Source: Candidatus Tayloriibacteriota bacterium
GTDB taxonomy: Bacteria > Patescibacteriota > Minisyncoccia > Phycocordibacterales > PALSA-1337
Assembly: GCA_903839695.1 (NCBI GenBank)
Contig: CAIMDI010000002.1
Span: forward strand, 1-34,900
Length of the DNA: 34,900 nucleotides
Reading direction: 5' to 3'
The number at the start of each line of letters is the position of its first letter. Position 1 is the stretch's first letter. Below, one piece after another: positions 122 through 33,330 of the stretch. The notes below the pieces were generated by a model. That model was not told the DNA's origin. It worked only from the letters and a program-made list of their open reading frames with translations, and did no database searches. Both the position numbers and the translations under genes were made by a program.

Positions 122-275
122 ACAGAGACAAAACCAGACGCCGATGGCGACTTCTCTAACGCGCCCATCCTCAACTTCAACGATGGCAAGGTCAAGTTCG
201 ACACGAAGTATGTCGACAATGCCAACGACAACTATGGGTCAGCATCGTGGTTCTTTCCGAAGTCTCTCTTCTTTT
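122..275 (+). repeat. Candidate DGR template repeat (TR); boundaries approximate
   Basis: GC-richer segment with no in-frame start, next to Avd and RT. One frame reads DGDFSNAPILNFNDGKVKFDTKYVDNANDNYGSASWFFPKSLF, with many AAC/AAT/GAC codons as expected of a DGR TR. No variable repeat (VR) is visible in the window, so it could instead be a VR remnant. Confidence 0.5.
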
Positions 276-656: not shown

Positions 657-1723
657 ATGAAGGTATATAAAAATATTTTTAATAAGGCGATTGAACTGGA
701 TAATTTGTTTTTGGCATGGGACGAATTCAAGGAAGGCAAAAGATCAAGGTCCGATGTTGCATATTTTGAGTTTGGATTGGAAACGAATATTTTTAAAATT
801 CATCATGAGCTTGAAGAACAAACTTACAGACATAGCCCGTATGAAGAATTTTATATAAGTGATCCAAAACGGAGACATATACATAAAGCAATGGTACGAG
901 ACCGAATCGTTCATCATGCAATCTTTAATATCCTCAATCCAATTTTTGACAAAACTTTCATTGCAAATTCTTTTTCTTGCAGGATAATGAAAGGAAGCCA
1001 TAAAGGAGTTGAGGTTGTAGCAAAAATGCTCAAAAAAGAAAGTCATAATAATTCCAGGTCATGCTATGCACTTAAGTGCGATATACAAAAATTTTTTGAC
1101 AGCATTGATCATCAAACCCTGACATTCTTCCTTTCTAGAAGAATTCAAGATGAAAAAATGATATGGCTCCTTAGGGAAATTATTGATGGCTACGAGAATA
1201 AAAGCGGAATCACGAGAGAGAGAGAGGGGGGGGGAGTTGCGCTTCGCGCAAAAAAGGAATACCAATCGGAAATCTTACTTCCCAAATTTTTGCTAATATT
1301 TATATGAATATCTTTGATCAATTTATTAAACATAATATGAAAGTTAAACATTATGCGAGATATACCGATGATTTTATCATTGTTTCTCACAACAAGATGT
1401 ATTTAGAAAGCCTAATTAAACCAATAAATGAATTCCTAATGAAGAACTTATATTTAAATTTGCATCCAAACAAAACAAGAATTAGGAAATACTCTCATGG
1501 TGTTGATTTCTTGGGATATGTCATTCTACCTCATTGTCAATTAATCCGAAAGAGAACATGGAAAAGAATACTGAGAAAATTCAAAGAAAAGGTTACGAAT
1601 TTCAAACAAGGTAAATTATCAGAAAAATCACTTAATCAATCATTGCAATCATATTTAGGAATCTTGTCTCATGCTGATGCTTATGAGCTTAGCGAGTATT
1701 TGAAGAATTTAAAACTATTCTAG
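657..1723 (+). CDS. DGR-type reverse transcriptase, split by a -1 frame change near 1250-1256 (programmed frameshift, phase variant, decay or assembly error)
   Basis: Frame 0 (657-1256): ...HIHKAMVRDRIVHHAIFNILNPIFDKTFIANSFSCRIMKGSHKGVE...ALKCDIQKFFDSIDH... . Frame -1 (1256-1723): GIPIGNLTSQIFANIYMNIFDQFIKHNMKVKHYARYTDDFIIVS...LNLHPNKTRIRKYSHGVDFLGY. A fused product would be 355 aa; zero-frame termination at 1307 gives 216 aa without YTDD. Confidence 0.85.
1237..1251 (+). other. Small hairpin TTGCGC-TTC-GCGCAA inside the RT, overlapping the 5' end of the A6G heptamer
   Basis: Perfect 6-bp stem with a 3-nt loop. Confidence 0.6.
1250..1256 (+). promoter_or_regulatory. Candidate -1 ribosomal slippery heptamer A AAA AAG
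   Basis: In the zero frame the codons are gcA AAA AAG. A -1 slip reads GGA ATA CCA ATC GGA AAT... = GIPIGN, the expected RT continuation. Confidence 0.5.
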
Positions 1724-17694: not shown

Positions 17695-18267
17695 TTAAAC
17701 AAATCTAGCTTCAAGATTAACCACTCTTTTATTTAAATCAAAGACTTCTTTTCTGCTAGCTTTTTCCTCCAATACATCTCTTATAATAGAAATATCATCC
17801 TTAACGCGTGAAAGTTGTAAATCGATATTAGTAACCTTATCATCAAGTCTATCAACTTTTTCATCAACAGATTTTACATATTCCCCTATACCCATGAGGC
17901 TATCAGTAAAAAATGTTTTTAAATCATTTGCATGCTGTTTAGAATCAAGCATAAAGATCTCCATGTCTTTTTTTGAGTCAACCATCATCAATCTCATTTC
18001 TTGTCTTGATGATTCCATAGAAATATCCATATCTTTTTTATATGTAGACATCATCAATCTTGTCTCTTTCCTTGATGATTCCATCATCAATCTCATTTCT
18101 TGTCTTGATGATTCCATGGAAATATCCATATCTTTTTTATATGTAGACATCATCAATCTTGTCTCTTTCCTTGATGATTCCATCATTAACTCTAAATCCT
18201 TTTTTGTAGCAAATTGTTTTGTATGCTCATCAAAATATTCTTTTGTAATAGTTTCTCCTTTGTTCAT
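17695..18267 (-). CDS. Coiled-coil protein with internal 33-aa tandem repeat
   Basis: MMESSRKETRLMMSTYKKDMDISMESSRQEMRL repeated; heptad-like C-terminus. Confidence 0.75.
   Translation of the reverse strand: MNKGETITKEYFDEHTKQFATKKDLELMMESSRKETRLMMSTYKKDMDISMESSRQEMRLMMESSRKETRLMMSTYKKDMDISMESSRQEMRLMMVDSKKDMEIFMLDSKQHANDLKTFFTDSLMGIGEYVKSVDEKVDRLDDKVTNIDLQLSRVKDDISIIRDVLEEKASRKEVFDLNKRVVNLEARFV
17981..18186. repeat. 99-bp tandem repeat, about 2 copies, nearly identical
   Basis: gaaatatccatatcttttttatatgtagacatcatcaatc... starts at 18020 and again at 18119. Confidence 0.85.
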
Positions 18268-30428: not shown

Positions 30429-31286
30429 ATGATAATTATCAATTTAAGCGGTGGGTTAGGAAATCAAATATTTCAATATGCTTTCGGCAGGGCTCTTTCA
30501 AAGAAATTAAATATTGAATTAAAACTAGATGGTAATTATTATTTTAGTAAAAAATGCATAAATAGCGATGTTCCAAGATCATATCTTTTAGATAAATTCA
30601 ATATTCATGCAAGCCTCGCAACAATTGAAGAAGTCAAAAAAGTAAACTCTATCTTGAAAAAAATAGTTAGAAAAGTAAATTTAAAAATTTATGGACCAGC
30701 GAATCCTTTTGATTTTAATGAAAAAAAATTCAACAAAAAAGATAATCAGTTCTATGTAGGCTTCTGGCAAAATGAAAAATACTTTAGTGAGATAAGTGAA
30801 GTTATAAGACAGGATATAACTTTAAAAAACGAAATGACTGGAATCTCTAGCAACCTAATGAATCAAATAACAAACTCGATTGATGCCACGTCTATACACG
30901 TCAGAAGAACTGATATACTTGATCCAAAAAATAAGTATGGAGGAATATGTGATGGAAATTATTATAAAAAAGCGATGGATATAATTAAAGAAAAAGTTTA
31001 TTCACCCACTTTCTTTATATTTTCAGATGACATCGAATGGTGCAAAGATAATTTTAAATTTGAAAAAAAAATCTATTTTGTATCTAATCCAATGACAAAA
31101 GATTACGAGGAGTTAGTACTAATGAGTAATTGTAAACATAATATCATTGCCAACTCATCTTTTAGTTGGTGGGGTGCATGGTTAAATAAAAATAATAATA
31201 AGATAATTATCGCACCTAGAAAGTGGCTAAATGTAAACGAAAAAGAATACAAAGATGTCCTCCCAAAAAATTGGATAAAAATTTAA
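30429..31286 (+). CDS. Alpha-1,2-fucosyltransferase-like, GT11
   Basis: IINLSGGLGNQIFQYAFGRALSKKL...SIHVRRTDI...CKHNIIANSSFSWWGAWLN. Confidence 0.9.
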   Translation: MIIINLSGGLGNQIFQYAFGRALSKKLNIELKLDGNYYFSKKCINSDVPRSYLLDKFNIHASLATIEEVKKVNSILKKIVRKVNLKIYGPANPFDFNEKKFNKKDNQFYVGFWQNEKYFSEISEVIRQDITLKNEMTGISSNLMNQITNSIDATSIHVRRTDILDPKNKYGGICDGNYYKKAMDIIKEKVYSPTFFIFSDDIEWCKDNFKFEKKIYFVSNPMTKDYEELVLMSNCKHNIIANSSFSWWGAWLNKNNNKIIIAPRKWLNVNEKEYKDVLPKNWIKI

Positions 31287-32445: not shown

Positions 32446-33330
32446 ATGTTAGTGATGAATATAAAAGGCGGTCTCGGTAATCAATTATTCCAATACGCAG
32501 CTGGAAGGGCTTTAGCGTTGAGAAGAGATGATGATAAAAAAGGAATAAATTCAATAAAATTAGACATAACTGGCTACGGAGAAAACAACGGCATTGACAC
32601 CATACGCCACTATGCCCTATCGCCATTCAACATAAATGCCGAGATAGCTTCTGCTGATGAAATCAAAAAACTGAAATACCCTCTTGGAAGAATTTCAAAG
32701 GTATTGCGATTTATTAAAATTAAAATACTTAGACAATTCAATACTGGCTTTAATTCATCAATTTATAATTCTAAAAAACCACTATATCTAGACGGCTTCT
32801 TCCAAACTGAAAAATATTTCATCGATAAAGAAGATGAAATCAGAAAAGATTTAACACTCAAGGATCCTTTGAGTCCAAGAGCTGTGGAAATATTGGCAAA
32901 AATAAATAGTTGCCCAAATAGCATCTCTCTACACATTAGACGTGGTGATTATGTTAGCGATAAAAATACAAACCAAAACCATGGTACATGCGATATGGAT
33001 TATTATAAAAAAGCGATTGAATATATAAATTCAAAAATTGGAAATGACATGCAAGTCTTTATCTTTTCAGATGATATAGAATGGGCAAAAGAAAATTTAA
33101 AATTTGATTATCCTACGATCTTCGTCTCTTCTCCAGAAATACCTGATTATGAAGAACTAATATTAATGAGCAAATGTAAACACAATATCATTGCCAATTC
33201 CTCTTTTAGCTGGTGGGGTGCTTGGCTTAATCAAAACCATGATAAAATAGTAATTGCCCCAAAAAAATGGGTATTAAAAAACGAAAATAATTTTAAAGAC
33301 ATAATTCCTGAAAAATGGCACAAAATATAA
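32446..33330 (+). CDS. Alpha-1,2-fucosyltransferase-like, GT11
   Basis: MNIKGGLGNQLFQYAAGRALALRR...SLHIRRGDYVSDKNTNQNHGTCDMDYYKKAIEYI...SFSWWGAWLN. Confidence 0.92.
   Translation: MLVMNIKGGLGNQLFQYAAGRALALRRDDDKKGINSIKLDITGYGENNGIDTIRHYALSPFNINAEIASADEIKKLKYPLGRISKVLRFIKIKILRQFNTGFNSSIYNSKKPLYLDGFFQTEKYFIDKEDEIRKDLTLKDPLSPRAVEILAKINSCPNSISLHIRRGDYVSDKNTNQNHGTCDMDYYKKAIEYINSKIGNDMQVFIFSDDIEWAKENLKFDYPTIFVSSPEIPDYEELILMSKCKHNIIANSSFSWWGAWLNQNHDKIVIAPKKWVLKNENNFKDIIPEKWHKI

Follow-up and report, generated by a model that had tools for sequence, protein, structure and literature searches.

The window analysed here is a stretch of 34,900 nucleotides from a 732-kb draft genome in 36 contigs, which its relatives mark as being of Patescibacteria type; it begins at a contig end and carries a diversity-generating retroelement (DGR) locus made up of a template repeat (TR), a gene for the accessory protein bAvd and a reverse transcriptase (RT) gene. 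The features of the locus are as follows.

About 131 to 266, forward strand: TR, placed by homology, its position and sequence matching the TRs of relatives L227 and L228
308 to 652, reverse strand: bAvd accessory protein gene (PF22296 bAvd, 1.8e-16; NF033474 DivGenRetAVD, 1.7e-20, just under the cut-off)
657 to 1307, forward strand: N-terminal half of the RT, in zero frame from the ATG at 657 to the stop at 1305–1307, 216 aa, with motifs up to motif 3
1214 to 1234, forward strand: compound simple-sequence repeat (GA)6-G9, with (GA)6 at 1214–1225 and G9 at 1226–1234, the proposed phase-variation tract
1237 to 1251, forward strand: perfect 6-bp hairpin TTGCGC-TTC-GCGCAA, immediately 3' of the tract
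1250 to 1256, forward strand: A AAA AAG (A6G) heptamer, rejected as a frameshift signal (see below)
1256 to 1723, forward strand: C-terminal half of the RT, with motif 4 (GIPIGNLTSQ), YTDD and thumb, its frame offset by 2 relative to the N-terminal half

By its sequence the split gene is the RT of a DGR. Both halves match RVT_1, motif 4 is of the xIGNLTSQ type and is followed by the [FY]xDD active site, and the accessory protein Avd (PF22296) is encoded beside it. The bAvd gene is intact, has no repeat and is divergent from the RT gene. TR/VR pairs of L227 and L228 differ at adenines only, and adenine-only differences, with no change at any other base, were found in nine relatives. The window has a recognisable TR without a VR: searches of its own genome by DNA, by protein and with the TR adenines free to vary, the last allowing up to three other mismatches, returned only the TR itself, and the VR is absent from the assembly. 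Start codons of RT and Avd lie 4 nt apart on opposite strands (645–660), and Avd is on the strand opposite to RT in most of the DGR loci examined; in some relatives a single tract lies inside the coding sequence of both genes.

The preliminary description had reported an RT split between two frames, and this is true of the deposited sequence, in which the zero frame runs to 1307 and a second frame from 1256 continues to 1723 with no internal stop and with no frame-matched start codon ahead of motif 4. Joining the two halves gives 355 aa, and the sizes of 216 and 355 aa claimed for the two products are reproduced from the open reading frames (ORFs); the (GA)n-G9 tract, the A6G heptamer and the hairpin upstream of it are likewise all present as described. 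In simple-sequence-repeat (SSR) contingency loci a tract lies within an ORF and its length sets the ON or OFF frame (PMC11475388). The (GA)6-G9 tract is a repeat of the hypermutable type inside a coding sequence, as in such phase-variable genes, and the window copy is at an OFF tract length according to the deposited assembly.

Relatives were gathered by searches within the family and then at the level of order and phylum. A simple-sequence repeat of 9–39 nt, (GA)n or once (CT)n, recurs in them between RT motifs 3 and 4; in same-family RTs it separates motif 4 from the helix that follows motif 3. We scored 29 tract genes with a recognisable upstream anchor, comprising 27 GA/AG tracts, one (CT)n tract (L358) and the compound tract of the window. 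The tract of L358 encodes Leu-Ser instead of Arg-Glu, and L395, which could not be scored, has a G10 tract at the same place. Hence it is the repeat that recurs and not the peptide. The RT nearest to that of the window, L076 (68% identity), is likewise out of frame, with a short GA tract. The sequence (GA)6.5 occurs once in the entire 732-kb genome and at about 13 sites among 54 family genomes, six of them exactly at this place in the RT, which is far from chance.

The frame offset between the halves is 0, 1 and 2 in 8, 14 and 7 of the 29 genes, respectively (uniformity, p=0.23), an in-frame share of about the one third that random lengths give. By comparison, all 194 RTs without a tract at this place are in frame (Fisher 2.8e-23 versus the tract genes). 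Tract length therefore varies between relatives such that some genes are in frame and others are not, both across the 29 genes and in the pair L012/L013; the lengths are assembly consensus calls from one genome per species, each tract-bearing genome coming from a different species (closest pair, dS ~0.4). Phase variation at the repeat, which the preliminary description had offered as a competing explanation, is thus backed by a recurrent tract running through all three frames. RTs with and without tracts are intermixed on an approximate FastTree phylogeny, whose well-supported branches force at least eight gains or losses; on this tree, tracts have been gained or lost repeatedly.

The window gene could nevertheless really be in frame if its run length were wrong in the assembly, which is a draft and contains in G9 a type of run that is hard to call. 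We regard this as unlikely, since 21 of the 29 tract genes are out of frame, most of them with pure dinucleotide repeats that are immune to a one-base homopolymer error. Moreover, a possible wrong run length in the window would leave the conclusion of phase variation unchanged, because the repeat at a recurrent site stays.

Slippage might also act during decoding rather than in the DNA. RNA polymerase or the ribosome can in principle slip on G9 and on long dinucleotide runs, and about a quarter of the tracts are followed by a hairpin, so that OFF genes might yield some full-length RT at a graded level. The hairpin and flanks are not conserved, however, and the tract of L374 is 2 nt away from motif 4. 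We consider such leaky decoding quite unlikely; it and phase variation are not mutually exclusive.

The preliminary description had centred on programmed −1 frameshifting at A AAA AAG, in the manner of Escherichia coli dnaX, as the source of 216-aa and 355-aa proteins from one gene. The window does hold the same A6G letters, and a −1 slip at 1250–1256 restores the RT, with a purine-rich tract and a hairpin in the vicinity. The conserved heptamer and constant −1 offset that go with this model are missing from the relatives, however: comparison of orthologues finds A6G in 3 of the 29 tract genes, at offsets 2, 1 and 0, as well as in 1 of 30 tract-free PIGN-type RTs, and the frame break is not constant. 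Because three different offsets occur, a single −1 signal cannot account for the relatives. AAA AAA GG is ordinary K-K-G coding before motif 4. The only hairpin found (1237–1251) lies upstream of the heptamer and ends inside it, instead of following it as a stimulator would, and no downstream stimulator was found within the region that was folded. The hairpin was also considered as a universal stimulator and discarded, a strong one following the tract in only about 7 of the 29 genes. Finally, the purine tract, read earlier as a Shine-Dalgarno stimulator, is instead a microsatellite; it lies at a recurrent site, and its length spans all three frames. A programmed frameshift is accordingly very improbable.

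OFF copies retain the marks of working genes. L012 (13-nt tract, OFF) and L013 (21-nt tract, ON) are 92% identical in DNA, and over the 148 codons of their C-terminal halves they differ by 28 synonymous changes and one non-synonymous change (dS 0.40, dN 0.003, dN/dS 0.007); omega for the N-terminal halves is 0.03. These codon comparisons place the RT halves past the break under strong purifying selection. In six OFF DGR loci VR and TR differ by 15–20 changes, all at TR adenines and none elsewhere, which indicates that these loci were recently active. Downstream frames of OFF genes are without internal stops and keep motif 4 and the [FY]xDD active site. The broken frame of the deposited sequence could in itself denote an ordinary decaying pseudogene, but the open downstream frames, the dN/dS of the OFF–ON pair and the confinement of VR changes to adenines make decay a highly improbable explanation.

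That the two halves are translated separately and then assemble, the purine-rich tract serving as an internal ribosome-binding site, is scarcely credible, since 15 of the 21 OFF genes, including that of the window, have no frame-matched ATG, GTG or TTG in the 75 nt before motif 4 and ON relatives make a single chain.

The predicted structure of an ON RT suggests how the tract is accommodated. The AlphaFold model (pLDDT 84) places the tract residues, ~184–201, at pLDDT below 50 in a disordered loop that links a palm helix to motif 4, and since the tract encodes such a loop, many in-frame tract sizes would be tolerated. The best match of the model in the PDB is the RT of the BPP-1 DGR (8UB7; Foldseek E 9.7e-22). 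The BPP-1 bRT–Avd system (8UB7 and related entries) resembles the present one in RT fold and motifs (phmmer 1.6e-41), in having an Avd partner and in adenine-specific change from TR to VR, seen here in relatives. It differs in that BPP-1 bRT lacks any repeat between motifs 3 and 4, where the RT described here has a slippage tract, and in that Avd is here on the opposite strand, divergent from the RT.

We conclude that slipped-strand phase variation very probably gates DGR hypermutation at this locus, with the window copy OFF. Slipped-strand mispairing would alter the length of (GA)n-G9 between RT motifs 3 and 4. At about one length in three the halves would be joined and an active RT of ~355 aa produced (ON); at the other lengths translation would stop (OFF), with presumed loss of RT activity in OFF cells. 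The reconstituted BPP-1 DGR needs bRT, Avd and TR, each one of them (PMC12875486), so a tract in either RT or Avd would gate the system. Switching of either gene, which we infer to be reversible within a population, would thereby start or stop targeted hypermutation in single cell lineages. Going OFF could preserve a favourable variant, and the benefit would lie in alternating between diversifying and keeping a variant.

Tracts also occur elsewhere in DGRs. In most of the other DGRs sampled in the order and the phylum, the divergently oriented RT and Avd genes have G8–G15, (GA)n, (GT)n or (TG)n at their 5' ends. Among DGRs without a mid-gene tract, 140 have poly-G, (GA)n or (GT)n within the opening codons of either RT or Avd, roughly one third of them in frame. 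The tract falls within the first RT codons in GLPLGNVTSQ-type RTs; in most GLPLGNLTSQ-type RTs the RT Met comes after the tract, which lies in the first Avd codons where Avd was recognised. Judged by ATG starts only, and with Avd recognised in about half of those loci, 22 of the 61 RTs that have to be read through the tract are in frame, as are 13 of 39 Avds, again one third, as random lengths give. A tract at either site, mid-gene or 5', was present in 173 of the 232 RTs with enough upstream sequence, which is not an unbiased rate because the sample consists of best-scoring matches; the 173 include L032, which is counted for an A9 run; its 5' site has G11 as well. The 54 family genomes contain 68 exact G9 sites, and 18 of these fall at DGR RT/Avd sites, which make up an estimated ~0.25% of the DNA.

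Among 79 DGR RTs on viral contigs, a control set that came from a broader alignment, one had a tract. The combined pattern of GA tract and motif was found in none of the viral contigs, and a protein search of these contigs with the RT C-terminal half returned no close relative. MutS was found in none of the 54 family genomes and in 11 of 14 control genomes, and without MutS slippage in the tracts should go uncorrected. We think it likely that DGR hypermutation is gated by contingency loci across the Patescibacteria, the repeat having arisen repeatedly in RT (middle or N-terminus) or in Avd. A random mutational switch would then control a targeted mutation machine, in cells that lack MutS in the family tested, and lineages would alternate between diversifying and fixing the variable protein.

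The SSR contingency loci of Neisseria, Haemophilus and Campylobacter are similar in their in-ORF repeats, in the use of several repeat types and in having about one third of genes in frame. Surface structures and DNA methyltransferases are what those loci are known to switch, whereas here it is an enzyme of targeted mutagenesis, or its accessory protein. The Patescibacteria DGR clade 2 of Roux et al. 2021 (PMC8144416) is alike in that it comprises cellular Patescibacteria DGRs, a likeness that does not imply a clade match, and that paper says nothing in its text of frameshift, phase variation or homopolymer. In the open-access literature we found nothing that joins DGRs with a slipped-strand or phase-variable RT. 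How DGRs are regulated in nature has been termed an exciting frontier (PMC12875486), and a heritable ON/OFF switch readable from DNA would, if correct, answer that question in a testable way for a large uncultured group of bacteria. It would also mean that annotation of such genomes may wrongly list DGR RTs and Avds as truncated genes or pseudogenes.

Several minor observations concern the repeats and their surroundings. Strong hairpins lie directly 3' of the GA tract in L014, L076, L101, L346 and L348 and at 1237–1251 of the window, several of them of the GCGC-TTC-GCGC type. Flanks of the tracts are often TTAC/TAC...GTAAA whatever the gene (L009, L012, L013, L048, L051, L077 and L083), which would fit a favoured sequence context for the repeat or a shared origin. 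In the family genomes L048, L051 and L044, long surface-like ORFs also have (GA)n/(TC)n tracts at their N-termini or in their signal-peptide regions and are candidates for further phase-variable genes. Elsewhere in the window, two 99-nt tandem copies at 17966–18163 that are 92–99% identical lie in a low-complexity region, and a diverged 210-nt direct repeat (71%) at 31077–31286 and 33121–33330 probably reflects duplicated genes.
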